Below, piece after piece: positions 17,189-32,193 of a DNA stretch of 64,000 nt (the first letter of the stretch is position 1; every line of letters begins with the position of its first letter). This stretch comes from Chitinophaga pinensis (GTDB taxonomy: Bacteria; Bacteroidota; Bacteroidia; B-17B0; Aurantibacillaceae). Made by a program: the position numbers and the translations under genes. The notes beneath the pieces are model-generated. The model made no database searches. It had not been told where the DNA came from and worked only from the letters and a program-made list of their open reading frames with translations. The stretch covers positions 1 through 64,000 of the forward strand of contig CAMAPT010000019.1 in NCBI GenBank assembly GCA_945860225.1, read 5' to 3'.

Positions 17189-17647
17189 ATGCTCCATAAA
17201 AAAACAAAATATGCCATAAAGGCTTTATTGTGCCTAGCTCAGGTTTATCCCGAAAAACAACACCTTAAAATTTCTGAAATTTCTGAAAAGGAGAAAATAC
17301 CTCGTAAGTTTTTAGAAGCTATTTTATTGGAATTGCGCCATAATGGTATTGCTGGTAGTAAAATGGGTGCAAAAGGAGGTTATTACCTTGTAAAACATCC
17401 TGAGGAAATTATGTTGAGTCAGATTATTCGTATGACAGGAGGACCTATTGCGTTATTACCTTGTGTGAGTTTAAATTTTTACGAATCATGTGATGAATGT
17501 TTACATGAGGAAACGTGTGGGCTTCGGGATGTTGTTTTAGAAGTGCGTGAAGCTACTATTAGAATTTTGTCAAAAAACAGTTTACAAGATGTTTTGGAAA
17601 GAGAAAGAAAATTAACCAAAAAACAATCTTTAAAAAAAGAAGACTAA
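17189..17647 (+). CDS. Rrf2 family transcriptional regulator, probable sulfur-locus regulator
   Basis: 152 residues with the Rrf2 winged helix at about 1-80 (KTKYAIKALLCLAQVY, ISEKEKIPRKFLEAILLELR, GAKGGYYL wing). Cysteines C92, C101, C104 and C110 lie where IscR-type members bind a 2Fe-2S cluster. The spacing differs from IscR (C92, C98, C104), so cluster binding is plausible but unproven. Rrf2 proteins include CymR, the cysteine regulator of Firmicutes. This gene stands directly before the sulfate-assimilation locus, so control of that locus is the simplest inference. Confidence 0.85.
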   Translation: MLHKKTKYAIKALLCLAQVYPEKQHLKISEISEKEKIPRKFLEAILLELRHNGIAGSKMGAKGGYYLVKHPEEIMLSQIIRMTGGPIALLPCVSLNFYESCDECLHEETCGLRDVVLEVREATIRILSKNSLQDVLERERKLTKKQSLKKED

Positions 17648-17846: not shown

Positions 17847-17858
17847 ACTATTCCGATA
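17847..17858. promoter_or_regulatory. weak candidate operator upstream of the cysteine leader
   Basis: CTAT, TCCG, ATAG: a short inverted repeat about 30 bases upstream of the leader -33 TTG, and a TCCGA/TCGGA pair spans 17851-17900. Possible Rrf2 site, but too short to be sure. Confidence 0.25.
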
Positions 17859-17886
17859 GGAGATAAGAAAATATTTTCATTTTTGC

Positions 17887-17917
17887 TTGTGTATGTCGGA
17901 TGAATGAATTTAATTTG
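17887..17917 (+). promoter_or_regulatory. promoter of the sulfur-assimilation leader
   Basis: TTG (17887-17889), 21 bases, TAATTTG (17911-17917), then C. The -7 box is one T short of TAnnTTTG, exactly like the one before ilvE (TTG, 20 bases, TAATTTG). A start near 17922-17925 leaves only about 5-8 bases before the leader ATG at 17930. Confidence 0.5.
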
Positions 17918-17929
17918 CACCCGGAAAAA

Positions 17930-18004
17930 ATGAGAAAAGTAAAAACATATCGTGAAAAATTTTTAAAAGGCATGATGTCTTGTTGTATGTGTCGATGTTG
18001 CTGA
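17930..18004 (+). CDS. 24-residue Cys/Met-rich leader peptide of the sulfur locus
   Basis: ATG at 17930 opens a 24-codon frame ending TGA at 18002-18004. The start is basic (MRKVKTYREK) and the last ten residues are MMSCCMCRCC: five Cys and three Met, eight sulfur residues in ten. The peptide has no sensible function as a protein, and its stop codon abuts a pair of competing hairpins. This is the plan of amino-acid attenuators such as those of trp and his, here with cysteine codons, in front of genes that make cysteine. It is too short for usual gene finders. The reading frame and hairpins are seen directly; the regulatory role is inferred. I do not recall a named family for it. Confidence 0.7.
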   Translation: MRKVKTYREKFLKGMMSCCMCRCC

Positions 18005-18057
18005 CGGAAGGAAATTTTGTTTTAAAGCCCCTCCGTGTAGCATGGTGGGGCTTTTTT
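18004..18057 (+). promoter_or_regulatory. antiterminator/terminator pair of the cysteine leader
   Basis: Antiterminator: ACGGAAGG (18004-18011) pairs with CCTCCGT (18030-18036), seven pairs with one bulged A. Terminator: AAAGCCCC (18024-18031) pairs with GGGGCTTT (18047-18054), extended by CC (18033-18034) with GG (18044-18045), then a T-run. The two share 18030-18034 and cannot coexist. A ribosome at the TGA would cover 18004-18011 and favour the terminator. One stalled at the first Cys codons (17981-17986) would leave it free and favour read-through. Confidence 0.65.
18024..18057 (+). terminator. intrinsic terminator between the Cys leader and the sulfur genes
   Basis: GC-rich stem AAAGCCCC/GGGGCTTT with an inner CC/GG, about nine-base loop, followed by TTT after the paired T's. 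It lies 39 bases before the first structural gene, so unconditional termination there would silence the cluster. This implies regulated read-through. Confidence 0.75.
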
Positions 18058-18095
18058 AGTAAACATATATAATCTTTTAAAAACATAAATTACTC

Positions 18096-18968
18096 ATGGA
18101 AAATATATATATCAGTGAATCAGGCCCGGAAATATCAGCAGCTATTTACGGATTCTGGAGATGGAATATAACTAGTCTAACTTCTATTAAAAGAGTAGAG
18201 GATATAGTAAATTATAATCTTGAATTAGGAGTGAATGCATTTGATCATAGTGATCAGTATAGTAATGGACAAATTGAGCAGTTATTTGGTCAGGCGATAA
18301 AAGCTAAATCATTTAAACGCGAAGATATTGTTATATCAGCAAAAGCGGGAATTAAAAAAATTGATAATACTAAAGAAAAGCAATTTGATTTAAGTCCTGC
18401 TCATATTCGTGCTTCTGTAGATGCGACTTTAAAACGACTACAAACAGATTATATTGATATTTTTTTATTAGAACAATTTGATCCACTGATTGATGCTGAG
18501 GAAACGGCTTCAGCTTTAACAGAACTGATTTTAAAAGGTAAAATTCGTCATATAGGAGTATCCAATTTCAATGTGTTTCAACACAGGTTATTAGCCTCTC
18601 GTTTATCTCGACCAATTATAACCAATCACATTGAATTGAATGTTTTAAATACAACTGCCATTGATGATGGAAGACTTGATTTTATAAAGCAGCAGTTTAG
18701 TAAACCAATGGCATGGGCACCTTTGGCTGGAGGAAGAGTATTGAATGGAGAAGATAAAAAAGCTATTAAAGTAAGAAAGGTACTTTCTGCAGTTGGTAAA
18801 CAGTATGATGCCAATGTAGAACAAACAGCAGTTGCTTGGTTATATAAATTAGGCGCTTTACCAATTATAGGAAGTCCGGATAAAAAACGTATTAAAAACG
18901 CAGCAAGTGCTTATTCTATTAAGTTGAGCAATGAAGACTGGTATAGAATATATAACGCAACAAAATAG
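18096..18968 (+). CDS. aldo/keto reductase, YdhF-like, with His-to-Glu change in the catalytic tetrad
   Basis: 290 residues, a single AKR (beta/alpha)8 barrel with NADPH-binding C-terminus (IIGSPDKKRIKNA). It resembles E. coli YdhF: GPEISAAIYGFWRW, then AFDHSDQYSNG. Tetrad residues D50, Y55 and K83 are present. The histidine expected five residues after D121 (YdhF reads HRPDPL) is E126 (EQFDPL). In steroid 5-beta-reductases (AKR1D) the same His-to-Glu change turns carbonyl reduction into C=C reduction. First structural gene behind the cysteine attenuator, 44 bases before the sulfite reductase. The substrate is unknown. Confidence 0.85.
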   Translation: MENIYISESGPEISAAIYGFWRWNITSLTSIKRVEDIVNYNLELGVNAFDHSDQYSNGQIEQLFGQAIKAKSFKREDIVISAKAGIKKIDNTKEKQFDLSPAHIRASVDATLKRLQTDYIDIFLLEQFDPLIDAEETASALTELILKGKIRHIGVSNFNVFQHRLLASRLSRPIITNHIELNVLNTTAIDDGRLDFIKQQFSKPMAWAPLAGGRVLNGEDKKAIKVRKVLSAVGKQYDANVEQTAVAWLYKLGALPIIGSPDKKRIKNAASAYSIKLSNEDWYRIYNATK

Positions 18969-19012: not shown

Positions 19013-21139
19013 ATGCAAAGTTTCAGAACCGAATTAGAATCGATTAATCATTCAGGAAAAGCCTTAGTAGAAAAAGATATTATTGATTTAGATAAAAAAA
19101 TCCGTGAATTTAGGGAGGGGAAAATTCATGAAGAAAAATTCAGAAGTCTTCGTTTGGCGCGCGGTGTTTATGGTCAAAGGCAGCAAGGAGTTCAGATGAT
19201 TCGCATTAAATTGCCTTTCGGTAAAATTAGTACTAAACAGTTATTACGTATTGCAGATATTAGTGATGAGTATTCAAATGGAAATTTACACTTAACCACG
19301 CGTCAGGATATTCAAATACATCATGTTAGTTTAGACAGAACCCCTGAATTGTGGGCAAAATTAGAACAAGAAGATATAACCTTGCGCGAAGCTTGCGGAA
19401 ATACCGTGCGTAATATTACAGCTTCTGCTGAGGCAGGTATCGATCCGAACGAATTATTTGACGTGTCTCCTTATGCATATGCATTATTTCAATATTTTTT
19501 AAGAAAACCATTTGGACAGGAATTGGGACGTAAAATTAAAATGGCTTTTTCTAATAATGAGAAAGATACGGCAGTTACTTATATACACGATTTTGGATTC
19601 ATTCCAAAACTGAATGCACAAAATGAAAGAGGGTTCAAAGTACTTGTTGGTGGTGGATTAGGAGCACAACCCTTTTTGGCTCAAACAGCCTTTGAATTTT
19701 TGCATGAAAATCAACTAATTCCATTTGTAGAAGCAAGCATCAGAGTTTTTGACAGACATGGAGAACGAGTAAGCAGGCACAAAGCTAGGATAAAATACCT
19801 AATCCATAAAATTGGATTAAATGAATTTTTGAAATTAGTAGAGGAAGAAAGAACAGCTTTATTACATAAAGAGTATGAAATTGATAGAAGCCATGCTCAT
19901 ACACACCCTCCAGTTAAATCAACTTCTTTGAGAAAGGCTTTGCCTACAGTAGATAAGTCGTTATATGATGCATGGTTAAAAACCAATGTATTTAAGCAAA
20001 AACAGGATGGCGGATACTTTGGCGTTTATATAAAAGTATTGTTGGGTAATATTTCTTCAGCAAAGGCAAGATTATTGGCGAATATTATTGAAACATATGC
20101 TTCTTCAGAAGATTTTAGGATTACTATCAACCAAGGATTTTTATTGAAATTTGTACATGAAAGAGAATTACCAACATTGTTTTTTGAGTTAAGTCAGATA
20201 GGTTTAGCGACTCCTGGCTTTGATTCTACGGGTGATATTACGGCTTGTCCAGGTACAGATACCTGTAATTTAGCGATCTCAAATAGTACAGAAATATCGG
20301 TTGAACTAGAAAAAGTCATTTATGAAGAATTTCCTGATTTGATTTATAATCACGATATAAAAATCAAAATTAGCGGTTGCATGAATTCTTGTGGTCAACA
20401 TGGTTTGGCTCAAATAGGTTTTCATGGAAGTTCATTTAAAGTAGGAGCTAATGTGGTTCCAGCTGTTCAATTGTTGCTTGGAGGAGGAACTTTGGGAGAT
20501 GGAAAAGGACGTATAGCTGATAAGGTAATTAAGGTAGCTAGTAAGCGAGCTCCACAGATTTTGAGAATTTTGTTCTCTGATTTTGAAAACAATGCTTTGG
20601 ATAGTGAATATTTTAATTCTTATTATGACAGAAAAGGTAAAGATTATTTTTATCAATTACTTAAACCTTTAGCCGATCATTCAAACTTAACTGAAACAGA
20701 TTATATAGATTGGGGTGCCGAAGAAAAATTTCAAACTGCGATCGGGGTAGGAGAGTGTGCTGGTGTTATCATTGATTTAGTTCAAACGTTATTTTTTGAG
20801 GCGGAAGAAAAATTGGCATGGAGTAGTGAGGCATTAGAAAAAGGTCAGTTTGGAGATAGTATTTATTATAGCTACGCCTCATTTATTCACTCAGCGAAAG
20901 GATTATTATTGGATGAAGCAATTCATGTAAATACACACCATACATTAATTAATGATTTTGATAAACATTTTGTAGAAACAGAACGATTTAAATTAGAAAA
21001 TAGTTTTAAGGAATTAGTGTTGCAAATTAATAAAAACGAACCCACCAAAGAATTTGCAGAATATTATTTCATTGAGGCCAAAAACTTTACAGATAAGATT
21101 ATTCATTATCGTGAAGCAAATAAATTAAAAGTATCATGA
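19013..21139 (+). CDS. siroheme sulfite (nitrite/sulfite) reductase with C-terminal HEPN-like domain
   Basis: 708 residues, longer than the usual 550-590. It should reduce sulfite to sulfide with six electrons. Two ferredoxin-like half domains alternate with two siroheme/4Fe-4S domains. Siroheme/cluster ligands are C412, C418 (CPGTDTC), C456 and C460 (CMNSC). Residues about 590-705 are an added all-helical domain (EAEEKLAWSSEALEKGQFGD, then SIYYSYASFIHSAKGLLLDE) of HEPN type. Its role is unknown; similar tails occur on Bacteroidota homologues. The genome context (CysDNH, CobA, SirC) makes sulfite rather than nitrite the likely substrate. Confidence 0.92.
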   Translation: MQSFRTELESINHSGKALVEKDIIDLDKKIREFREGKIHEEKFRSLRLARGVYGQRQQGVQMIRIKLPFGKISTKQLLRIADISDEYSNGNLHLTTRQDIQIHHVSLDRTPELWAKLEQEDITLREACGNTVRNITASAEAGIDPNELFDVSPYAYALFQYFLRKPFGQELGRKIKMAFSNNEKDTAVTYIHDFGFIPKLNAQNERGFKVLVGGGLGAQPFLAQTAFEFLHENQLIPFVEASIRVFDRHGERVSRHKARIKYLIHKIGLNEFLKLVEEERTALLHKEYEIDRSHAHTHPPVKSTSLRKALPTVDKSLYDAWLKTNVFKQKQDGGYFGVYIKVLLGNISSAKARLLANIIETYASSEDFRITINQGFLLKFVHERELPTLFFELSQIGLATPGFDSTGDITACPGTDTCNLAISNSTEISVELEKVIYEEFPDLIYNHDIKIKISGCMNSCGQHGLAQIGFHGSSFKVGANVVPAVQLLLGGGTLGDGKGRIADKVIKVASKRAPQILRILFSDFENNALDSEYFNSYYDRKGKDYFYQLLKPLADHSNLTETDYIDWGAEEKFQTAIGVGECAGVIIDLVQTLFFEAEEKLAWSSEALEKGQFGDSIYYSYASFIHSAKGLLLDEAIHVNTHHTLINDFDKHFVETERFKLENSFKELVLQINKNEPTKEFAEYYFIEAKNFTDKIIHYREANKLKVS

Positions 21140-21274: not shown

Positions 21275-22045
21275 ATGAAAAAATATATAAATCCAAAATT
21301 AACTATAGTAGGCGCTGGACCCGGAGATCCAGAATTAATCACTGTAAAAGGCATTAACGCTTTAAGCAAAGCCGATGTGATTTTATACGACGCCCTTGCC
21401 AATATAGAATTGTTGAAGTATGCTCCTAAAAATACATTGAAAGTATTTGTAGGCAAGCGAAAAAACAAGCATGAATACAAACAAGAAGAGATCAACGCAT
21501 TAATTGTTGAAATGGCATTGAAACATGGAAACGTTGTTCGATTAAAGGGAGGAGATCCATTTGTATTCGGTAGGGGACAGGAAGAAATCAAACATGCAGA
21601 ATTGTTTGAAATTGAAACAGAATATATTCCGGGCATATCCAGTGCTACGGGGGTTCCTGGTTTAGCAGGAATTCCTGTGACTCACCGCGGGGTGAGCGAA
21701 AGTTTTTGGGTGATCACAGCCACCACCCAAAAAGGACAATTATCAAAAGACGTATTGGATGCCGCAAGGACCAATGCTACAGTAGTTCTTTTGATGGGAG
21801 TTCATAAACTTAATGAGATTGTGAAAGTCTTCACAGCAGAGGGAAAATCTTCAACACCTGTAGCCGTTATACAAAACGGTTCCTTGGATTCGGAACAAAT
21901 AGCCATTGCTTCCATCGATTCCATTGAACAGGTTGTAAAAGATCAAAAAATTAAATCTCCTGCTATAATCGTGATTGGCGATGTGGTAAAATCTCACAGG
22001 AATTATGCGCTTTTAGCTCATGACCTCAAACATCTACTAAATTAA
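21275..22045 (+). CDS. cobA: uroporphyrinogen-III C-methyltransferase
   Basis: 256 residues, full length for the SUMT/CobA family. It uses two SAM to turn uroporphyrinogen III into precorrin-2, the first step to siroheme. Signatures: VGAGPGDPELITVKG near the N-terminus and RLKGGDPFVFGRGQEE (about 90-105). In this locus it supplies siroheme for the adjacent sulfite reductase, together with the SirC domain of the downstream fusion gene. Confidence 0.95.
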   Translation: MKKYINPKLTIVGAGPGDPELITVKGINALSKADVILYDALANIELLKYAPKNTLKVFVGKRKNKHEYKQEEINALIVEMALKHGNVVRLKGGDPFVFGRGQEEIKHAELFEIETEYIPGISSATGVPGLAGIPVTHRGVSESFWVITATTQKGQLSKDVLDAARTNATVVLLMGVHKLNEIVKVFTAEGKSSTPVAVIQNGSLDSEQIAIASIDSIEQVVKDQKIKSPAIIVIGDVVKSHRNYALLAHDLKHLLN

Positions 22046-22076
22046 TTTTAAAATCTTTTATTAAAAAACAATTTTC

Positions 22077-24683
22077 ATGAAAACTAAATTTATTATTTTA
22101 TTCATTCTGTCGGCATTTTTTGTCGACGCACAAAACAATCCACCTCAAAATAGTAGTAAAAAAATATCCGGAATTATTAAAGATCAAAATGGAGAAATTT
22201 TATTTGGAGCTGTTGTCAATATTCCAGGATCTAAAGTGAGCGCTACTACAGATTCACTAGGTCGTTATTCATTTTCTACCACACAAGAACCACCTTTTAA
22301 AATTCAAGTCAATTATATTGGGTTTAAACGTCTTGAAAAAGACATAACAGCCTTAACAGAAGGCGCCTTGGATTTTTCCTTGGAATTAGATAACAACTTA
22401 AATGAGGTGTCTATCGTAAGTTCTCGTCGACGTGAAGAAGCGGTTCAAGATGTGCCAATTGCGATAACTGTAATTGGTGGAACAAAAGTAGCAGAAACAG
22501 GAGCATTCAATGTAAACAGAGTTAAAGAATTAGTTCCTTCCGTTCAATTATACTCATCTAATCCAAGAAACACAGGTCTTAACATTAGAGGTTTAGGGTC
22601 ATCATTTGGGTTAACTAATGATGGGATTGATCCGGGTGTTGGTTTTTATGTTGATGGTGTATATTATGCTCGTGCAGCTGCTACAACACTTGATTTTTTA
22701 GATGTTGAAAGAATTGAGGTTTTACGCGGACCTCAAGGAACACTATTTGGTAAAAATACAACGGCAGGTGCATTTAATATTACAAGTCGTAAGCCAACAT
22801 TTACTCCAGAAGGAAGCGCAGAATTAAGCTATGGGAACTTTCAATATGTGCAAGCTAAAGCCACGGTATCAGGTGCTATAAACAAAAAAATTGCCGGACG
22901 AGTATCTTTTTCTAGTACTCAAAGAGATGGTTTAATTGAAAATGTGAAAACACAGGAATATATCAATACCTTAAATAATCAGGGAATTAGAGGACAACTA
23001 TTAATCACTCCAACCGATAAATTATCCATTAACCTATCAAGCAGCTATACTAATCAAAGACCTAAAGGATACGCTCAAGTAGTAGCTGGTGTTGTTCCAA
23101 CAGAAAGAGCTTCATTTCGTCAGTTTAATTCAATTGCTGCTGATCTAGGGTATAAACTTCCAAGTCAAAATGCTTTCGATAGAAAAATTGATCAAGATAC
23201 ACCTTGGAGATCTTACCAAGAGTTTAGTAATTCATCTTTAAATGTTGATTATAAAATTGGAGAAGGAACATTAACCTCCACTTCATCATGGGGTTCTTGG
23301 CATTGGGATCCATCAAATGACCGGGATTTTACAGGGTTGCAGGCATTGCGTTTATCCCAAAATCCATCAGACCAAACACAATGGAGCCAGGAGTTACGTT
23401 ATGCCGGTCAGTTAACATCTAAACTAAGTGGAGTAGCCGGGATATATGCTATTGGTCAAGAAGTTAAAGTAAATGGCAAAGAAGAATCTGGTAAAGATCA
23501 ATGGCGTTTCTCTCAAGATAAAAATGATGCTGCATCTACTGCTTTGTGGAAAACACCAGGCTTATTAGAAGGGTATGGAATTAGCACTAAATCTGATTTA
23601 AAATCATTTAGCAGTGCAGCTTTTATTAATATTGATTGGAATGTTTTTAAAGGATTACACATTTCTCCTGGTATTAGATATAATTATGATGAGAAAATTG
23701 CTGATTATAACAGAACTACTTATGGCGGATTACAAACAACTAATCCGAAATTAATAGCACTTCAACAAAAGGTGTATAGTTCTCAAGCCTATCACAAAGG
23801 ACAGTCAAATACCAACTTATCATATAATATTACGGCTTCTTATAAATTTTCAGATAAAATTAATGTATTCGGCACCTATGCAACAGCTTACAAGCCAATT
23901 GGCGTAAACGTAGCAGGTATTCCTACCAGTACTTTAACAAATACAGCCGATTTGAACTACGCTATCATTAAGCCAGAATATAGTTCATACTATGAGTTCG
24001 GTATTAAAACATCACCAACTCAGCGTTCTAAATTTAATGTTAATGCGTATAATAACGATATTACAGATTATCAAACGAATGTACAATCTGCAGAATTAGG
24101 TGTGAATCGTGGTTATTTGGCAAATGCTGAAAAGGTAAATGTAAAGGGTATTGAGGCAGAAGGTAGCTTAGCAGTTAAAGAATTTTTATCTGTATTTGCA
24201 AGTGGTTCTTATACTGATGGAAAATATGTTAAGTTTACAAATGCTCCATTACCTTTAGAGGCAACTGGTCATACCGTAACTGTAGATGGGAAATCAACAT
24301 CTGTTTCTTACACCGACGTTTCTGGTCAAAGACTTCCGGGTATATCTAAATGGGCAGGTTCATTTGGTGGCGAATTATCTTTAGCTGGTAAATTTTTACA
24401 ACATACAGGAAGATTTTATTTAGCTTCTGAAGTATCTTACCGTTCAGAATTCTCATCAAGCCCATCTCCTTCTAAGTATTTAAATATTGATGGATATTCA
24501 TTAGTTAATGCAAGAATTGGTTTCCGTGCGGCAAAAGGAGTTTCATTCATAGTATGGAGTCGAAATTTATTAGACAAAAATTATTATGAACAATTGCTTC
24601 CTGCCGGAGGAAATGCAGGTCAGTATGGAGCTGTACTTGGAGATCAAAGAACGTATGGCGTAACACTTAAATATTCATTTTAA
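22077..24683 (+). CDS. TonB-dependent receptor in the sulfur locus
   Basis: 868 residues. Signal peptide 1-19 (ending FVDAQ), CarboxypepD_reg-like domain (about 30-118), plug (about 125-240, with NIRGLGSSFG and EVLRGPQGTLFGKNTTAG), then a 22-strand barrel ending in an aromatic residue (LKYSF). It imports a large or scarce substrate across the outer membrane using TonB energy. No SusD partner follows, so it is not of the polysaccharide type. Lying 31 bases after cobA in the cysteine locus, it may bring in an organosulfur compound or a metal complex; this is inference. A hairpin follows the stop. Confidence 0.88.
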   Translation: MKTKFIILFILSAFFVDAQNNPPQNSSKKISGIIKDQNGEILFGAVVNIPGSKVSATTDSLGRYSFSTTQEPPFKIQVNYIGFKRLEKDITALTEGALDFSLELDNNLNEVSIVSSRRREEAVQDVPIAITVIGGTKVAETGAFNVNRVKELVPSVQLYSSNPRNTGLNIRGLGSSFGLTNDGIDPGVGFYVDGVYYARAAATTLDFLDVERIEVLRGPQGTLFGKNTTAGAFNITSRKPTFTPEGSAELSYGNFQYVQAKATVSGAINKKIAGRVSFSSTQRDGLIENVKTQEYINTLNNQGIRGQLLITPTDKLSINLSSSYTNQRPKGYAQVVAGVVPTERASFRQFNSIAADLGYKLPSQNAFDRKIDQDTPWRSYQEFSNSSLNVDYKIGEGTLTSTSSWGSWHWDPSNDRDFTGLQALRLSQNPSDQTQWSQELRYAGQLTSKLSGVAGIYAIGQEVKVNGKEESGKDQWRFSQDKNDAASTALWKTPGLLEGYGISTKSDLKSFSSAAFINIDWNVFKGLHISPGIRYNYDEKIADYNRTTYGGLQTTNPKLIALQQKVYSSQAYHKGQSNTNLSYNITASYKFSDKINVFGTYATAYKPIGVNVAGIPTSTLTNTADLNYAIIKPEYSSYYEFGIKTSPTQRSKFNVNAYNNDITDYQTNVQSAELGVNRGYLANAEKVNVKGIEAEGSLAVKEFLSVFASGSYTDGKYVKFTNAPLPLEATGHTVTVDGKSTSVSYTDVSGQRLPGISKWAGSFGGELSLAGKFLQHTGRFYLASEVSYRSEFSSSPSPSKYLNIDGYSLVNARIGFRAAKGVSFIVWSRNLLDKNYYEQLLPAGGNAGQYGAVLGDQRTYGVTLKYSF

Positions 24684-24723
24684 TAGTATTGATAAGCATT
24701 GCATTTAATTTTTAGATGTATTT

Positions 24724-24753
24724 AATAACCGGAGAATTGTTTCTCCGGTTATT
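24724..24753 (+). terminator. hairpin after the TonB receptor
   Basis: Perfect 13-bp stem AATAACCGGAGAA/TTCTCCGGTTATT with loop TTGT. The following bases (TAAAAC) are not a T-run, so it may stop only part of the transcripts or protect the mRNA end. Confidence 0.6.
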
Positions 24754-24791
24754 TAAAACAAAAATTGATATTTTAAACTATAAAATAAATT

Positions 24792-26264
24792 ATGTCAACC
24801 GAAGTTAAAAATACACTCTTCCCGGTTTTTTTGAAGCTTGAAAAATTTCGGGTTTTAATTGTAGGAGGTGGCAAAGTAGGGTTAGAAAAAGTTACAGCCG
24901 TTATTAATAATAGTCCTGCAACGAAAATTACTTTGGTGGCAGATTATATTTCTGATGAAATTAAAGTTTTACAGGACGAATATTCTACAATTACGATTCA
25001 TCAACGTTTGTTTCAGGAGACTGATTTAAACGAAATTGATTTGGTGATTGTTGCCATCAATGACAAACAAAAAAGTATAGAAATTAAACAATTAGCAAAA
25101 GACAAACATATTTTGGCCAATGTGGCTGATACTCCCGATCAATGTGATTTTTACTTGGGATCAATAGTTCAAAAGGGAAATGTGAAAATTGCCGTATCCA
25201 CTAATGGTAAATCTCCTACTCTGGCAAAACGCATTCGTGAGACGTTTGAAGAGTCTTTTCCGGAAGAAATTAACGAATCGATGGAACATCTCACTAAAGT
25301 TAGGAGTTATTTAAAAGGTGATTTTACAGATAAGGTTAGGCAATTAAATAGTATTACATCTGTTCTTTCTCAAAATCCTAAAAAGTTACATTCTATAAAA
25401 ATTAGTAAACGCCGGATATGGATATACAGTTTATCTATTCCTGCCTTATTGATTTCAGGATATTTGTTATGTTATTTTTTACCACCCTCCATATTGGGAC
25501 AATCTGCTATCAATCTAGTCAGCACTATCGATGCATCGTTTTTGTTATATATTTTGGCAGGATTTACCGCCCAAATGATTGATGGCGCTTTGGGCATGGC
25601 CTATGGCGTTACGGCAACCACTTTTTTGTTATCATTTGGCATTACACCTGCAGCTTCGAGCGCTAGTGTGCATGCTTCAGAAGTATTTACAAGTGCGGCA
25701 TCTGGGTTAATGCATTTGAAATTTAAAAATGTTAACATGAAATTATTTAAAGGACTTTTAATACCCGGAGTGATAGGTGCTATTTTAGGAGCATATATTT
25801 TATCTTCATTTGAACAATATAATTATATTATAAAGCCATTAGTTTCTTCCTATACATTAATTTTAGGAATTGTTATAGTAGTAAAAGCTTTAAAAAAAGA
25901 CACGGTCCGTCAAAAAATCAAGCGGTTATTTCCACTTGCTTTGGTAGGTGGTTTTTTAGATTCGATTGGAGGAGGAGGATGGGGACCTATCGTTTCTTCC
26001 ACATTAATTGCGCGCGGAAGAAATCCAAGATATACAATTGGTTCGGTAAATTTAGCAGAGTTCTTTATCGCTCTTTCCAGTTCTTTAACTTTTGTCACAA
26101 TTATTGGATTAACTCATTGGATGATTATTGCCGGATTAATTATAGGAGGAGTTATAGCAGCACCCATTGCGGCTTATATGGCTAATAAAATTCCAACAAA
26201 AACAATCATGATTTTAGTAGGAATTGTGGTTATAATATTAAGCTTAAAACGATTATTTTTTTAA
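24792..26264 (+). CDS. fusion: precorrin-2 dehydrogenase/ferrochelatase (SirC/Met8) plus TSUP (TauE/SafE) transporter
   Basis: 490 residues. Residues 1-205 match the CysG N-terminal/Met8 domain: NAD-binding VLIVGGGKVGLEK, NVADTPDQCDFYLGSIV and STNGKSPTLAKRIRE. It oxidises precorrin-2 to sirohydrochlorin and, in some members, inserts iron. From about 212 to 488 follow 8-9 membrane segments of the TSUP family, with two related halves (GFTAQMIDGALGMAYG and GGFLDSIGGGGWGP). TSUP proteins move sulfite, sulfate or sulfonates. No separate sulfate permease is in the locus, so this half is the obvious anion transporter, direction unknown. Confidence 0.9.
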   Translation: MSTEVKNTLFPVFLKLEKFRVLIVGGGKVGLEKVTAVINNSPATKITLVADYISDEIKVLQDEYSTITIHQRLFQETDLNEIDLVIVAINDKQKSIEIKQLAKDKHILANVADTPDQCDFYLGSIVQKGNVKIAVSTNGKSPTLAKRIRETFEESFPEEINESMEHLTKVRSYLKGDFTDKVRQLNSITSVLSQNPKKLHSIKISKRRIWIYSLSIPALLISGYLLCYFLPPSILGQSAINLVSTIDASFLLYILAGFTAQMIDGALGMAYGVTATTFLLSFGITPAASSASVHASEVFTSAASGLMHLKFKNVNMKLFKGLLIPGVIGAILGAYILSSFEQYNYIIKPLVSSYTLILGIVIVVKALKKDTVRQKIKRLFPLALVGGFLDSIGGGGWGPIVSSTLIARGRNPRYTIGSVNLAEFFIALSSSLTFVTIIGLTHWMIIAGLIIGGVIAAPIAAYMANKIPTKTIMILVGIVVIILSLKRLFF

Positions 26265-26289
26265 ACGATTTAAAAACAAAAATACAAAC

Positions 26290-27300
26290 ATGATAACAAC
26301 AGACATTGCCATTGTTGGCGCAGGACCAGTAGCTTTATTTGCCATTTTTGAAGCAGGACTTTTGAAAATGCGTTGCCACCTGATTGACTATTTGCCGCAA
26401 CCCGGCGGACAGTTATCAGAAATATATCCTAAAAAACCAATTTATGATATACCTGGTTTCCCATCTGTTTTAGCTCAGGAATTGGTGGATAATTTGTTGA
26501 AACAAGCGGAACCATTTAGCCCAACGTTTACACTTGGAGAAAGAATAGAGTCATTAGACAAGATAGGAGAAAAAGATTTCATACTAACAACTAATTTAGG
26601 AACAAAAGTTAGTGCAAAGGCTGTTGTTATAGCAGGCGGATTAGGATGTTTTGAACCAAGAAAGCCAGAGGTTGAAGGATTGAGCCGTTTTGAAAATGGA
26701 AAAGGCGTTAACTATATGATTTTGGATCCTGAAAAGTATCGTGGTCAAAAAATGGTAATTGCCGGGGGTGGTGATAGTGCACTAGATTGGACTATTTTTT
26801 TAAGTGAAGTTTGTTCTGAGTTAACATTAGTCCATCGTAGCGAATCCTTTAGAGGAGCTCCCGATAGTGTGAATAAAGTGTTAAAATTAGCAGAAGAAGG
26901 TAAAATAAAATTACACTTAAATACCAATATTCTTCATATAGACGGCGGCGACAGACTTGAAACAGTAGTGTTAAAAAATACAAAAACGAACGAAGAAACG
27001 AGTATTCATTCAGATTATCTGATTCCTTTATTTGGGTTGAGTCCTAAATTAGGACCAATTGAGAAATGGGGATTAAACATTGATAAAAATGCCATTGAGG
27101 TAAATACAGATGATTATTCAACCAATATTGAAGGCGTTTATGCTATTGGAGATATTAATACCTATAAAAATAAACTCAAACTTATTTTATGCGGTTTCCA
27201 TGAAGCGGCGTTGATGGCCCACAGTGCTTATAAATACATCAATCCGGGAATAAAATATACGATGAAATATACCACTGTTAATGGCGTAAATTCATTTTAA
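26290..27300 (+). CDS. ferredoxin--NADP+ reductase-like FAD flavoprotein
   Basis: 336 residues with two Rossmann motifs: FAD site IAIVGAGPVALFAIFEAG-like at about 6-22 and NADPH site VIAGGGDSALDWTIFL at about 155-172; a C-terminal GVYAIGDIN binds FAD. The active-site CxxC of thioredoxin reductase is absent, which fits the thioredoxin-reductase-like ferredoxin-NADP reductases (YumC/FNR type). It probably delivers electrons to the sulfite and APS reductases of this locus through ferredoxin; no ferredoxin gene is in the window. It starts 25 bases after the fusion gene. Confidence 0.87.
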   Translation: MITTDIAIVGAGPVALFAIFEAGLLKMRCHLIDYLPQPGGQLSEIYPKKPIYDIPGFPSVLAQELVDNLLKQAEPFSPTFTLGERIESLDKIGEKDFILTTNLGTKVSAKAVVIAGGLGCFEPRKPEVEGLSRFENGKGVNYMILDPEKYRGQKMVIAGGGDSALDWTIFLSEVCSELTLVHRSESFRGAPDSVNKVLKLAEEGKIKLHLNTNILHIDGGDRLETVVLKNTKTNEETSIHSDYLIPLFGLSPKLGPIEKWGLNIDKNAIEVNTDDYSTNIEGVYAIGDINTYKNKLKLILCGFHEAALMAHSAYKYINPGIKYTMKYTTVNGVNSF

Positions 27301-27336
27301 AAACATTAATTTTATTCATAATAAAATATCTGTAAC

Positions 27337-27753
27337 ATGAAGATTAATGTAAAACGACTGAATGATAATTTCCATATGGAAGCAACCAATGAAGAAGGTA
27401 ATGCTTTGCAAATGGATGGTTCTCCTGATATAGGTGGAGAAGGGAAGGGGATGCGACCCATGCAATTGTTATTGGCAGGAATAGGCGGTTGTAGTGCTAT
27501 TGACGTGATTTTAATCTTAAAAAAACAAAAGCAAGTTATAGAGTCTTTTGAAGTAGAGGTAGAGGGCGAAAGAGAAAAAATTGAAGACTACTCTTTGTTT
27601 CGAGATATTTGTTTGCATTTTAAAATTTGCGGACAAGTTGATAAAGATAAAGCCGAACGAGCCGTGAAATTATCTATTGAAAAATATTGCTCGGTTTCTA
27701 AAACACTTGAGCCTACAGCAAAAATTAGTTATAAAGTAAGTGTAAATAATTAA
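27337..27753 (+). CDS. OsmC/Ohr family protein
   Basis: 138 residues. The two redox cysteines of the family are present, C52 (GIGGCSAID) and C118 (EKYCSVSKT). OsmC proteins reduce organic peroxides with thiols; members in cysteine loci may deal with persulfide or sulfide stress, which is inference here. It begins 36 bases after the flavoprotein and ends 155 bases before metZ. Confidence 0.88.
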   Translation: MKINVKRLNDNFHMEATNEEGNALQMDGSPDIGGEGKGMRPMQLLLAGIGGCSAIDVILILKKQKQVIESFEVEVEGEREKIEDYSLFRDICLHFKICGQVDKDKAERAVKLSIEKYCSVSKTLEPTAKISYKVSVNN

Positions 27754-27865
27754 AAAATACGCCACTTCATTATCTTCCCAACTCAGTTTAGTTTGAACTT
27801 GTTGAATAAGTAAAATGACAGGCGAAAAATTTTCAATATTCGACAAAGCTATCATGTAAAGTCGT

Positions 27866-27884
27866 TCTGTTTTATTTACAGAAA
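27866..27884 (+). repeat. small hairpin before metZ
   Basis: TTCTGT, seven bases, ACAGAA, in the 155-base OsmC-metZ gap. Stem is only six pairs; function uncertain. Confidence 0.25.
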
Positions 27885-27908
27885 AAATTGAAATAAAAAA
27901 GAGAAAAA

Positions 27909-29075
27909 ATGAAAGACAAACATTTTGAAACCCAAGCCATTAGGGCACAATTAAATCGAACAGATTATAATGAGCATTCAGTTCCTTTATTTTTAACCTC
28001 TAGTTTTGTATTTGACGAGGCTGAAGGCATGCGGGCAGCTTTTAATGAAGAGTCTGATGATTTTATTTATTCTCGATACGTAAATCCTAACACCAACGAA
28101 TTTATTGATAAAATCTGTTTGTTGGAAGGAGCCGAAGCTGGTTTTGCTTCTGCGTCCGGTATGGCAGCAATTTTTACAACATTTATGGCATTGCTTAAAT
28201 CTGGCGACCATGTTATTTCATGTTCCTCTGTATTTGGAGCCACACATGCTATTTTTACAAAGTATTTTCCAAAATGGAATATTTCGCATTCCTATTTTAC
28301 TACCGGATCGGTCAAGGAAATAGAGTCATTGATTAAGCCGGAAACAAAATTTATTTATTTGGAAACCCCCACTAATCCGGCTATTGAATTAATAGATTTA
28401 GAATTAGTAGCATCGATTGCCAAAAAACATCAAATTCTTCTTATTGTAGATAATTGTTTTGCAACTCCTTATCTGCAACAGCCTATTCGGTTTGGTGCAG
28501 ACCTCGTTATTCATTCTGCTACAAAATATATGGATGGCCAAGGACGAGTTTTAGGAGGAATAGTAGTAGGCCAAAAAGAATTGGTGCATGCTATTTACTT
28601 ATTTGGTAGATTAACAGGCCCTTCTATGAGTCCTTTTAATGCATGGGTATTGAGTAAAAGTTTAGAAACTTTAGCTGTTAGAATGGACAGACATTGTGAT
28701 AATGCGCTATATGTTGCTCAAAAATTAGAAGGACATTCAAGATTAGAAAATGTATCATATCCATTTTTATCGTCTCATCCTCATCATGCTATAGCAAAAA
28801 AACAAATGAAGGCAGGTGGAGGTATTATTACCATTACAGTGTCGGGTGGTTATGAAGCAGCCAAACAATTTTTGGATAAACTACAAATGATTAAAATTTC
28901 TCCAAATTTAGGAGATGCTCGAAGCATTGCTACTCATCCTGCATCATCTACCCATTGCAAATTGAGTGAAGCCGAAAGATTATCAGTTGGAATTACACCA
29001 GGCTTAATTCGGGTTTCTGTTGGGTTGGAGAATAGGGAGGATATTTTGAATGATTTATTACAAGCTTTGCAATAG
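27909..29075 (+). CDS. metZ: O-succinyl/O-acetylhomoserine sulfhydrylase
   Basis: 388 residues, Cys/Met-metabolism PLP enzyme (aminotransferase fold I). PLP lysine lies in HSATKYMDGQGRVLGG, and PLP phosphate contacts in ASGMAAI (about 80). The family makes homocysteine from an activated homoserine and sulfide. The order in the locus (sulfide production upstream, cysteine synthesis downstream) supports direct sulfhydrylation over cystathionine synthesis. Which acyl-homoserine is used cannot be read from the sequence. Confidence 0.88.
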   Translation: MKDKHFETQAIRAQLNRTDYNEHSVPLFLTSSFVFDEAEGMRAAFNEESDDFIYSRYVNPNTNEFIDKICLLEGAEAGFASASGMAAIFTTFMALLKSGDHVISCSSVFGATHAIFTKYFPKWNISHSYFTTGSVKEIESLIKPETKFIYLETPTNPAIELIDLELVASIAKKHQILLIVDNCFATPYLQQPIRFGADLVIHSATKYMDGQGRVLGGIVVGQKELVHAIYLFGRLTGPSMSPFNAWVLSKSLETLAVRMDRHCDNALYVAQKLEGHSRLENVSYPFLSSHPHHAIAKKQMKAGGGIITITVSGGYEAAKQFLDKLQMIKISPNLGDARSIATHPASSTHCKLSEAERLSVGITPGLIRVSVGLENREDILNDLLQALQ

Positions 29076-29131
29076 GCTCCTAAATAAAGAATATTATATA
29101 TTAATTACGAATGTTCATTGCCTAAAATTTT

Positions 29132-29821
29132 ATGATACCGTTACAAGAACTTATTAAAAATACATCTCCAGAAAAAGCATTAGCATTATTAGCCGATAAA
29201 TTTCCGGGTGAGATAGTTTTTTCAACTAGTTTGGGTTATGAAGATCAAGTCGTTTCTCATATTATTTTCTCAAATAATTTGCCTATCGATGTATTTACAT
29301 TAGATACAGGCCGTTTATTTAACGAAACATATTCTGTCTTGAATAGTACTTTGGAACGATTTCAAACACCTATCAAAGTGTTTTATCCTCAAACAGAGGC
29401 ATTAGAGAAAATGGTTTCGAATAAAGGACCTTTGAGTTTTTATGAAAGTATAGATAATAGAAAGGAATGTTGTTTTATTCGAAAAGTAGAGCCATTAAAG
29501 CGTGCTTTAAAAGGGAAAAAAATATGGATAACCGGTATCAGATCAGAGCAATCAGGAAACCGACAAGACATGCCTTTATTAGAGTGGGATGAAGGCAATC
29601 AAATAACTAAGTTTCATCCTATTTTACATTGGACATTAGATGAGGTTAAAGCATATATTATAAAGCATAATATCCCCTACAATCCGCTTCACGATAGAGG
29701 TTTTGTGAGCATAGGTTGTGCACCCTGCACTAGAGCTATTAAGGATGGAGAAGATTTTAGAGCTGGCCGTTGGTGGTGGGAACAAAATGACAAAAAAGAA
29801 TGCGGATTGCATAGTAAATAA
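29132..29821 (+). CDS. cysH: adenylylsulfate (APS) reductase, 4Fe-4S type CysH
   Basis: 229 residues. It reduces APS to sulfite and AMP using thioredoxin. Cluster cysteines are C113-C114 and C196-xx-C199; the catalytic cysteine is C224 in KKECGLH near the end. The CC...CxxC set marks enzymes that take APS directly rather than PAPS, which agrees with the absence of a cysC kinase here. It starts 56 bases after metZ. Confidence 0.93.
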   Translation: MIPLQELIKNTSPEKALALLADKFPGEIVFSTSLGYEDQVVSHIIFSNNLPIDVFTLDTGRLFNETYSVLNSTLERFQTPIKVFYPQTEALEKMVSNKGPLSFYESIDNRKECCFIRKVEPLKRALKGKKIWITGIRSEQSGNRQDMPLLEWDEGNQITKFHPILHWTLDEVKAYIIKHNIPYNPLHDRGFVSIGCAPCTRAIKDGEDFRAGRWWWEQNDKKECGLHSK

Positions 29822-29849
29822 AAATCTCTACTTCGATTGAATTGATATA

Positions 29850-29922
29850 AACTGTCTCTTCGAGCGAAGTCGAGAAGTGAAAAAAATAAACAGAGGTTTT
29901 GACTTCGTTCGACCTGACAAAA
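29850..29922. repeat. intergenic TTCGAGCGAAGTCGA-type repeat
   Basis: CTTCGAGCGAAGTCGAGAAG (29859 region) and GACTTCGTTCGACCTGACA (29908 region) are related inverted units in the cysH-cysD gap. Their higher GC and self-complementarity look like the dispersed palindromic repeats seen between genes in many Bacteroidota. Confidence 0.55.
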
Positions 29923-29929
29923 TATTGAT

Positions 29930-30838
29930 ATGAAAACACAACACGATTATTTAGTTCAATTGGAAGCAGAAGCCATTTACATTCTGCGTGAAGTAGCTGG
30001 ACAATTTGAACGTCCTGCATTATTATTCAGTGGAGGGAAAGATAGTATTTGTTTAGTTCATTTAGCTCTTAAGGCGTTTCGTCCTGGTAAATTTCCTTTT
30101 CCTTTAGTGCATGTAGATACAGGTCATAATTTTCCTGAAGCCATTATTTATCGTGATAATTTGGCTAAACAAATTGATGAAAGATTAATTGTAAGATATG
30201 TGGCTGATACGATTCAACAAAAAAAATTGCAAGATGGAAAAGGTAAATTTCCAAGCCGTAATGGGTTGCAAACATATACGTTATTAGATGTGATTGAAGA
30301 ATTTGAATTTGATGCATGTATAGGAGGCGCGAGAAGAGATGAGGAAAAAGCGAGGGCGAAGGAACGTATTTTTTCTGTACGTGATGAATTTGGGCAATGG
30401 GATCCAAAAATGCAACGTCCTGAACTTTGGAATATTTACAATGGTAAGATACATAAAGGTGAGAATGTTCGAATTTTCCCCATCAGTAATTGGACTGAGT
30501 TAGATGTTTGGAATTATATTAAACGAGAAAATATACAATTACCGTCTATTTATTTTACTCATGAACGCGAATGTATCTTGACGGAAAGTGGGCAGTTGAT
30601 GAATACAAATGAGTTTGTGAAACGCGAAGAAACTGATGTTGTTGTTACCAAAAAAGTGCGTTACAGAACGGTTGGAGATATGACTTGTACGGCTGCGATA
30701 GAAAGCGAAGCCTATAATGTAGATGATATTATTACTGAATTAAAGGAGGCTAGAATTAGCGAGCGAGGAGCGACACGTATGGATGACCGCGTAAGCGAAG
30801 CTGCCATGGAAGACAGAAAAAAAGGGGGATACTTTTAA
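29930..30838 (+). CDS. cysD: sulfate adenylyltransferase subunit 2
   Basis: 302 residues, full length. The PP-loop motif LLFSGGKDSICLVHLA (about 28-43) makes the adenylyl transfer, and the C-terminal SERGATRMDDRVSEAAMEDRKKGGYF is the family signature. With CysN it converts sulfate and ATP to APS, the entry step of the pathway. Confidence 0.96.
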   Translation: MKTQHDYLVQLEAEAIYILREVAGQFERPALLFSGGKDSICLVHLALKAFRPGKFPFPLVHVDTGHNFPEAIIYRDNLAKQIDERLIVRYVADTIQQKKLQDGKGKFPSRNGLQTYTLLDVIEEFEFDACIGGARRDEEKARAKERIFSVRDEFGQWDPKMQRPELWNIYNGKIHKGENVRIFPISNWTELDVWNYIKRENIQLPSIYFTHERECILTESGQLMNTNEFVKREETDVVVTKKVRYRTVGDMTCTAAIESEAYNVDDIITELKEARISERGATRMDDRVSEAAMEDRKKGGYF

Positions 30839-30844
30839 AGGAGT

Positions 30845-30945
30845 GTTTATTTATAAGGTAGCCAACTCATAACTCATAATCCTTAATTTATAACTCACAC
30901 ACACACACAACTCATAATTCATAATTCACAATTTATAACTCAATA
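30845..30945. repeat. low-complexity AACTCATAATTCA repeats with a (CA)n run
   Basis: Imperfect copies of AACTCATAATTCATAATTCA and TTTATAACTCA surround CACACACACACACA (about 30895-30908). They fill the cysD-cysN gap, two genes that usually abut. Confidence 0.6.
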
Positions 30946-30948
30946 AAA

Positions 30949-32193
30949 ATGGATTTATTAAGATTTTTTACAGCAGGAAACGTAGATGATGGTAAGAGCA
31001 CGCTTATCGGACGTTTACTGTATGATAGTAATTCTATCTCAACCGATATCATTGAAACACTCACGCGTCAAAGTAAAACTGTAGGTGCAAATACTGAAAT
31101 TGATTTGGCATTATTAACTGATGGATTGCGCGCTGAGCGCGAACAAGGTATTACTATTGATGTAGCGTACAAATATTTTAGTACATCTAAAAGAAAGTTC
31201 ATTATTGCAGATACGCCTGGCCATATTCAATACACTCGCAATATGTTTACGGGCGCATCTAATGCTGATTTGGCTATCATTCTTGTAGATGCAAGAAATG
31301 GTATTACCGACCAAACGAAACGACATACCATTATTTCAGCGATACTTGGTGTGCCCCATGTTTTAGTGTGTATCAATAAAATGGATTTGATTGATTACTC
31401 AGAAGAAAAATATAAACAGATAGAGCGTGATTATTTAGTTTTTGCTGAAAAATTGAATTTACAAAACATTGGTTTTATTCCAGCAAGTGCTTTGGCAGGA
31501 GATAATGTAGTGACCAAATCTGAAAAAATGCCTTGGTATAATGGGTTGTCTTTATTGGAGTTTTTGGAAACGGTTCAATTATCTGAAACTCAACAAACCG
31601 ATGAGGCTCGTTTTCAGGTACAGTATGTTATTCGTCCGCAAACAGAAGCGTTGCATGATTACAGAGGCTTTGCCGGAAAGGTGGTTAGTGGTGCTTATAA
31701 AAAAGGGCAACGTGTTACCGTTTTACCTTCCGGTATAGAATCAAGCATCGATAAAATTGAAGTTAACCAAAATGAAGTGGATGTAGCAGAAACCAATACT
31801 CCGGTAGTGTTACATTTAAAAGATGATGTTGATATTAGTAGGGGTAATACGATTGTGCCTTCTGAATTTTTGCCTACAACACAAAAAGAATTGACTGCAA
31901 CCATTTGTTGGATGGATAATGCTTCTTACATACCAGGTCAAAAAATTATTTTACAACAAAATAGTTTTCGATCTAAAGCGGTTATTAAAGACGTCATGAG
32001 TAAAATAGATATTCATTCGTTTCAGGCATTAGAAAGCGATGGAACTATGAAGTTAAATGATATTTGTAAGGTATTTATTAAAACGGCAGAGCCCATTAGT
32101 TTCGATAGTTATTCGCATAATAGAAACACAGGTGCTTTTATATTAATCAACGAAAACACAAATAATACCGTTGCGGCGGGAACAATTGACTGA
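30949..32193 (+). CDS. cysN: sulfate adenylyltransferase subunit 1 (GTPase)
   Basis: 414 residues, an EF-Tu-like GTPase that drives APS formation by CysD. G1 GNVDDGKSTLIGRLL, G3 DTPGHIQYTRNM and G4 NKMDL are intact, followed by two beta-barrel domains. It is shorter than the E. coli protein (475) and has no CysC kinase fusion at the C-terminus. cysE starts 6 bases after the stop. Confidence 0.95.
   Translation: MDLLRFFTAGNVDDGKSTLIGRLLYDSNSISTDIIETLTRQSKTVGANTEIDLALLTDGLRAEREQGITIDVAYKYFSTSKRKFIIADTPGHIQYTRNMFTGASNADLAIILVDARNGITDQTKRHTIISAILGVPHVLVCINKMDLIDYSEEKYKQIERDYLVFAEKLNLQNIGFIPASALAGDNVVTKSEKMPWYNGLSLLEFLETVQLSETQQTDEARFQVQYVIRPQTEALHDYRGFAGKVVSGAYKKGQRVTVLPSGIESSIDKIEVNQNEVDVAETNTPVVLHLKDDVDISRGNTIVPSEFLPTTQKELTATICWMDNASYIPGQKIILQQNSFRSKAVIKDVMSKIDIHSFQALESDGTMKLNDICKVFIKTAEPISFDSYSHNRNTGAFILINENTNNTVAAGTID

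Follow-up and report, generated by a model that had tools for sequence, protein, structure and literature searches.

The window analyzed here is the whole 64,000-nt stretch of a Chitinophaga pinensis contig, in which a short leader ORF ending in Cys and Met codons, followed by a terminator hairpin, lies between the gene of an Rrf2-family regulator and a cluster of sulfur genes. The features of this region, all on the forward (+) strand, are as follows.

17189-17647 (+): gene of an Rrf2-family regulator, the upstream neighbor (Pfam PF02082, E = 1.8e-31)
17853-17861 (+): operator-like CCGATAGGA, with related YCTATAGR sites in the upstream regions of relatives
17887-17917 (+): Bacteroidota-type promoter (TTG at 17887-17889, 21-nt spacer, TAATTTG at 17911-17917)
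17930-18004 (+): leader ORF MRKVKTYREKFLKGMMSCCMCRCC plus stop, 24 codons; a Cys/Met-ended ORF is conserved in relatives
17972-18001 (+): regulatory codon cluster MMSCCMCRCC, first Cys codon at 17981
17995-18011 (+): antiterminator 5' strand, AUGUUGC-UG-ACGGA-A-GG (fold, duplex test and alignment A3)
18024-18057 (+): intrinsic terminator, AAAGCCCC/GGGGCUUU stem with inner CCGUG/CAUGG, T-run at 18052-18057
18030-18043 (+): antiterminator 3' strand, CCUCCGUGUAGCAU, within the terminator 5' arm and loop
18096-18968 (+): aldo/keto reductase, first controlled gene (Pfam PF00248, E = 2.3e-48)
19013-21139 (+): NirA/CysI-like sulfite reductase, second controlled gene (Pfam NIR_SIR, PF01077, E = 4.1e-47)
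21275-32193 (+): rest of the sulfur cluster, putatively co-controlled by the leader

The distal part of the cluster encodes a uroporphyrinogen methylase, a TonB receptor, a siroheme/TauE fusion, an oxidoreductase, a Cys/Met PLP enzyme and PAPS reductase-like, CysD-like and CysN-like proteins, with the genes at 21275, 22077, 24792, 26290 and 27909 named by Pfam and those at 29132, 29930 and 30949 by inspecting the sequence; matches to the CysD-like protein are widespread. A first-pass annotation, made from the sequence of this stretch, had placed a terminator 39 bases before the first sulfur gene. Both the terminator and the 39-nt gap are as described, but the gene that follows is the aldo/keto reductase, which is not a recognised sulfur gene, and the sulfite reductase comes second.

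The leader ORF does carry the eight sulfur residues originally noted in its last ten, namely, five Cys and three Met, against a local protein background of 0.8% Cys and 1.4% Met. Given the local Cys frequency, the probability of at least five Cys in ten residues is ~7e-9. At least four Cys in the last 10 residues are found in 2 of the 747 short ATG ORFs of the window, and only 1 of its 53 terminator-like hairpins, the one behind the 17930-18004 ORF, is preceded by a convincingly Cys-rich upstream ORF (uORF). The position of the promoter suggests that transcription starts near 17922-17924, just upstream of the ATG at 17930, which would leave an untranslated stretch ahead of that codon (the TAnnTTTG −7 element is given as a Bacteroidota promoter type in PMC9723704). 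Since the alternative in-frame ATG at 17900 is upstream of this likely transcription start, 17930 is the likely start of the ORF.

The Rrf2-family regulator scores under every NCBIfam equivalog cut-off, CymR and IscR included, and is a possible second layer of control. Palindrome-like sites of the YCTATAGR/CCGATAGGA type are found in 24 of 115 upstream regions versus 7 of 480 control stretches and are a candidate operator for the neighboring regulator. Such sites upstream of sulfite reductase transcripts occur in loci with and without leaders.

With respect to RNA structure, the terminator has a folding energy of −19.7 kcal/mol (z = −5.0). The stop codon at 18002-18004 overlaps ACGGAAGG, the element from which an alternative pairing with the terminator 5' arm had been proposed. 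That pairing is borne out by folding, with the 17995-18045 segment alone adopting another hairpin of −14.2 kcal/mol that occupies the terminator 5' arm and loop, and by the duplex test against dinucleotide shuffles (P = 0.005), but it is longer than originally drawn, joining 17995-18011 to 18030-18043. The added part includes AUGUUGC (17995-18001, spanning the last two Cys codons and one further base), which pairs with GUAGCAU (18037-18043) in the terminator loop. The mutual exclusion of the two hairpins is likewise upheld, as the antiterminator uses the terminator 5' arm and loop. Rfam covariance models gave no match at the locus up to an E value of 1, with both SAM-I (RF00162) and T-box elements absent there, and no match in the leaders of 19 relatives, where SAM and tRNA alone were found, at other positions. 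A weak minus-strand covariance-model match at 18021-18106 was discarded as the same palindrome read in reverse.

Six genomes of the same genus possess the sulfite reductase (77 to 80% identity), and in all six the aldo/keto reductase is preceded by a short ORF that contains a Cys/Met cluster, by the stop codon of this ORF and by a terminator. The Cys run at the ORF end, the antiterminator and the terminator are kept in five of the six, and so is the core TAACGGAAG...GCCCCTCC, with CTCCGT in four of them and CTCCTT in L036, whose cluster is partly degenerate and has lost the last two Cys codons. L037 keeps the layout with different helix sequences (antiterminator ATGTATGGAC against GTCCCTACAT, terminator AAGTCCC against GGGGACTT). 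Tested on single sequences, the antiterminator is non-significant in L033, L035, L036 and L038 (P = 0.13 to 0.38). Across the 87 genomes of the family, the layout is present at most sulfite reductase loci, whether or not the aldo/keto reductase is there, and absent at L041 and L056-L059, for several of which this is because the gene lies directly downstream of another coding gene. The specificity of the leader was gauged with a covariance model of 11 leaders, which returned 11 matches of at least 69 bits across these 87 genomes, all at this locus, with the next match at 38 bits.

The alternative pairing is conserved and covaries, as the first reading of the locus would predict. In alignment A3, 90% of antiterminator cells are paired, falling to 33 to 57% after a slide of one to three columns; 1 of 500 shuffles matches the covariation score and 2 of 500 match the number of cells changed on both sides, figures that relatedness can inflate. 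The clearest compensation is between the third base of the last Cys codon and the terminator loop, where TGC goes with G and TGT with A, a change that is silent in the coding sequence and matched in the RNA. The terminator stem is paired in 98.9% of A3 cells and hardly varies in the 11-leader alignment.

In L036, L037, L038, L041, L058 and L059, the leader directly follows a peroxiredoxin-like gene (C terminus ...YLRTTPQPNI, named by eye); at those of these loci that have no leader, the sulfite reductase operon follows this gene instead. Orthologues of the aldo/keto reductase in Dyadobacter, Emticicia, Niastella and other named genomes were also considered and set aside, being unlinked to sulfite reductase; no leader precedes them, save for two incidental Cys-containing ORFs without the layout.

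We surveyed the class Bacteroidia, where 97 of 396 genomes contain the sulfite reductase, by scanning up to 6 kb upstream in 80 of these 97 for a Cys/Met-cluster uORF located 38 to 100 nt before a terminator T-run (Met at half weight). This yielded 71 candidate modules in 58 loci from 14 families, the family of the window included; at least three of the modules are probably due to chance (L168, the first of L190 and the first of L195), and L067 duplicates L174. The same scan of the antisense strand of these loci gave only 8 scattered matches. Module selection took no account of pairing between the terminator 5' arm and the sequence that follows the first Cys codon; this pairing is significant against dinucleotide shuffles (P < 0.05) in 45 of the 71 modules and in 8 of 78 further terminators taken from the same loci (Fisher's exact test, P = 5e-12).

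The ribosome geometry proposed for the single locus is recovered in this set. Among the 51 modules with a duplex P of <0.1, the antiterminator starts a median of 23 nt from the first Cys codon (interquartile range, 20 to 27) and in 80% shares at least 4 nt with the stretch covered by a ribosome standing at the stop codon; the median distance from stop codon to T-run is 54 nt. By equilibrium folding of partial transcripts, assuming a ribosome edge 15 nt beyond the A site, 57 of 71 modules are predicted to have an occluded terminator arm when the ribosome is stalled and a free arm when it has reached the stop codon, versus 61 of 205 control terminators matched for exposure length (P = 1e-13). 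Within the clusters, ATG occurs 177 times in frame versus 4 and 15 times in the other frames; the TGY counts by frame (243, 142 and 9) carry some confounding, since any ATG with T or C next to it produces TGY in the +1 frame. A UG-rich RNA, rather than coding, as the source of the Cys codons was rejected given that ATG is nearly restricted to the ORF frame. Outside the Cys/Met codons the peptides show no conservation, and the leader sequence varies from locus to locus.

No module was detected in about half of the sulfite reductase loci examined, and no Cys leader in the sampled genomes of families f49, f14, f62, f11 and f32 (L208, L210, L212 and L217-L247 in part). Some members of f36 have reduced clusters (...CCMRINTSRL, then stop), which, together with the leaderless families, suggests loss or decay of the switch.

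In eleven loci (L169-L172, L174, L186, L193, L200, L201, L211 and L215), two Cys modules stand in series. Of the 56 first modules, 44 have a T[AT]nnTTTG element no more than 35 nt from the uORF start; this element accompanies only 1 of the 11 second modules and 37 of 856 control ATGs. Since the promoter element accompanies first but rarely second uORFs, we infer that the pairs share one promoter and act serially on the same RNA.

The same layout is also found before the APS kinase gene (cysC) in seven loci (L280, L288, L289, L294, L298, L299 and L301), located by using as probes the CysD-like protein and the ATGTGYTGYATGATGTGY pattern of Cys/Met codons; both examples tested for cysC identity matched Pfam PF01583. 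The antiterminator of these leaders reaches P ≤ 0.013 in six of the seven and P = 0.053 in the seventh. Their peptides (e.g., MKTTNFFKSMSNNNAFMCCMMCCN, then stop) resemble those of the sulfite reductase leaders mainly in the cluster, and thus separate leaders stand on different operons of one pathway, with Cys/Met codons at a fixed distance from the switch as what they have in common.

Taken as a whole, the locus is very likely a ribosome-mediated, Rho-independent transcription attenuator geared to sulfur amino acids. Transcription would start near 17922 and a ribosome would begin translating the leader ORF at 17930. With Cys-tRNA charged, the ribosome would reach the stop codon at 18002-18004 and cover 17995-18011, allowing the terminator at 18024-18057 to form and end transcription before the operon. 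When Cys-tRNA (possibly also Met-tRNA) is scarce, the ribosome would wait at the first Cys codons (17981-17986), leaving most of 17995-18011 free to pair with the emerging 18030-18043. The antiterminator would then form first and capture the terminator 5' arm, giving read-through into the aldo/keto reductase, the sulfite reductase and the other sulfur genes, so that charged tRNA would be the signal and termination in vivo would respond to cysteine. Because the design recurs before sulfur genes in 14 Bacteroidota families, these cells very probably gauge cysteine by the speed of the ribosome on those codons. Such a mechanism would imply that transcription and translation are close enough in these bacteria for a stalled ribosome to steer RNA polymerase.

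Those elements of classical trp/his-type attenuators that a sequence can reveal are all recognizable in this arrangement: a leader ORF rich in codons for the pathway product, an intrinsic terminator between the ORF and the first gene, an antiterminator that excludes it, and controlled genes (sulfite reductase and the sulfur cluster here, cysC elsewhere) that make the sensed amino acid. As in those systems, a ribosome at the stop codon is predicted to cover the antiterminator and one at the regulatory codons to leave it free. Unlike them, the regulatory codons are for Cys (and Met), the host phylum is Bacteroidota, two attenuators often stand in series behind one promoter, and the leader peptide sequence differs between loci.

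The striking in-frame Met codons mean that the leader may respond to both Cys and Met. The attenuator reading of the first-pass annotation is supported, all the comparative checks that it called for having turned out in its favor, with the refinement that Met codons are also characteristic of the cluster and the signal may thus be sulfur amino acids and not only cysteine. A switch of the same construction that reads mainly methionine, or a general shortage of sulfur amino acids through Cys and Met codons jointly, strikes us as unlikely but worth weighing. It would account for the ATG excess (177 in frame versus 4 and 15), which the half weight of Met in module selection inflates, and for several leaders whose clusters hold more Met than Cys (e.g., MMMWMCCCK). 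On the other hand, the strongest runs are pure Cys (MMCCCC and CCCMCCCC), Cys being present in every module by construction, and the genes reduce sulfate to sulfide, upstream of both amino acids. Direct sensing of metal or redox by a Cys/Met-rich nascent peptide, with peptide arrest taking the place of charged tRNA, is improbable. CC-M-C-x-CC motifs could bind metals and thiols could be redox-active, but the peptides lack conservation outside the Cys/Met codons, the cluster keeps its distance from the antiterminator rather than a fixed position in the peptide, and established ribosome geometry would place it still inside the exit tunnel at the critical time in most leaders.

Descriptions exist of polycysteine uORFs in Mycobacterium that lack terminators (PMC1262725; PMC4633059; Canestrari 2020, cited through PMC13236596), and translational coupling or Rho-dependent control of that kind, with the hairpin as an ordinary terminator of an upstream gene, would be a precedent-based reading. 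The strong intrinsic terminator between uORF and gene at a fixed spacing, the uORF's own promoter and the significant antiterminator make it highly improbable. Finally, a Cys-rich ORF might happen to precede a terminator, and single-locus probabilities alone are insufficient to exclude this fully; given the recurrence in 14 families, with an antiterminator unused in selection, and the independent cysC set, we judge that coincidence has a negligible probability and is refuted by the comparative data. The attenuator interpretation appears well supported, with a scope much wider than the single locus for which it was put forward.

Cys-rich uORFs were indeed described in mycobacteria, as the first-pass annotation stated (PMC1262725; PMC4633059). 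Leader peptides with Cys runs have been predicted before cys operons of Mycobacterium and Propionibacterium acnes and before cbs of Bifidobacterium longum, explicitly without conserved terminators (PMC1262725). The mycobacterial ones are backed by ribosome profiling and were suggested by the authors to represent the first cysteine attenuation (PMC4633059). Canestrari 2020 reported cysteine-responsive attenuation in mycobacteria, called translation attenuation where it is cited in PMC13236596. The Bacteroidota leaders share with these the short uORF with Cys codons near the stop, upstream of sulfur genes; a cysteine response has been proposed or shown for the actinobacterial leaders and would be expected for those described here. 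The actinobacterial systems reportedly lack conserved terminator hairpins, are described as working by translation attenuation (PMC13236596) and have leaderless uORFs, unlike the locus studied here, with its intrinsic terminator, antiterminator and probable untranslated stretch before the ATG. Because the intrinsic terminator is present, the locus falls outside the mycobacterial polycysteine type. In the open-access literature, Cys-rich leader peptides were previously known from Actinobacteria only, without terminators.

The first-pass annotation knew of no Bacteroidota example. For cysteine this stands in the open-access literature, but a transcriptome paper on Flavobacterium psychrophilum reports strong signs of leader-peptide attenuation ahead of operons for amino-acid biosynthesis (PMC9723704), that is, in the same phylum and with a short peptide regulating elongation; its main text mentions neither cysteine nor sulfate genes in that connection. 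In B. thetaiotaomicron, short ORFs that resemble leader peptides have also been noted (PMC7366714). No terminator-type cysteine attenuator in any bacterium was found in the open-access literature, which is weak evidence, since subscription journals and supplements lie largely outside it. If our reading is correct, this would be the first cysteine-specific attenuator with full terminator/antiterminator machinery in the literature searched, in a phylum whose control of sulfur assimilation is little described. The layout would offer a general means of recognizing cysteine-controlled genes in uncultured Bacteroidota and would explain many short Cys-rich ORFs that are annotated as hypothetical or ignored.

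Cysteine attenuation in Bacteroidota apparently constitutes a regulon. Whether this regulon is phylum wide and concerned with sulfur amino acids in general, comprising terminator-type sulfite reductase and APS kinase leaders, frequent tandems and a SAM-I-linked leader at metX/metY, we regard as an evenly balanced proposition. The tandem attenuators would then form a sharpened or two-input gate and provide a natural test of whether serial attenuators sharpen the response, and the combination of SAM-I and a Cys-rich leader at metX/metY would allow one mRNA to read both SAM and cysteine supply.

The SAM-I riboswitch (RF00162) controls sulfur genes in the same genomes, at a separate metY/metX locus. 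In the genome of the window, one SAM-I riboswitch (L248, G000:C7:49127-49257 plus downstream) is directly followed by a Cys-rich leader ORF (MKHTKSK...FIMACMCCCCYMC, then stop), a 78-aa ORF and a metY-like PLP enzyme of Cys/Met metabolism. Leaders of the form ...MMACCMCCCCCMC (then stop) lie between SAM-I and metX/metY in other genera; besides L248, the loci with a SAM-I-linked leader are L002, L008, L023 and L025-L027. There is no clear intrinsic terminator downstream of the SAM-I-linked Cys leader, and therefore a different mechanism may operate there. A metH-like gene (MSTIQQELEKRVLVIDGAMGSMIQQY..., named by eye) follows the second SAM-I riboswitch of the genome (L249, G000:C3:69778-69946), and a terminator-like hairpin separates the two.
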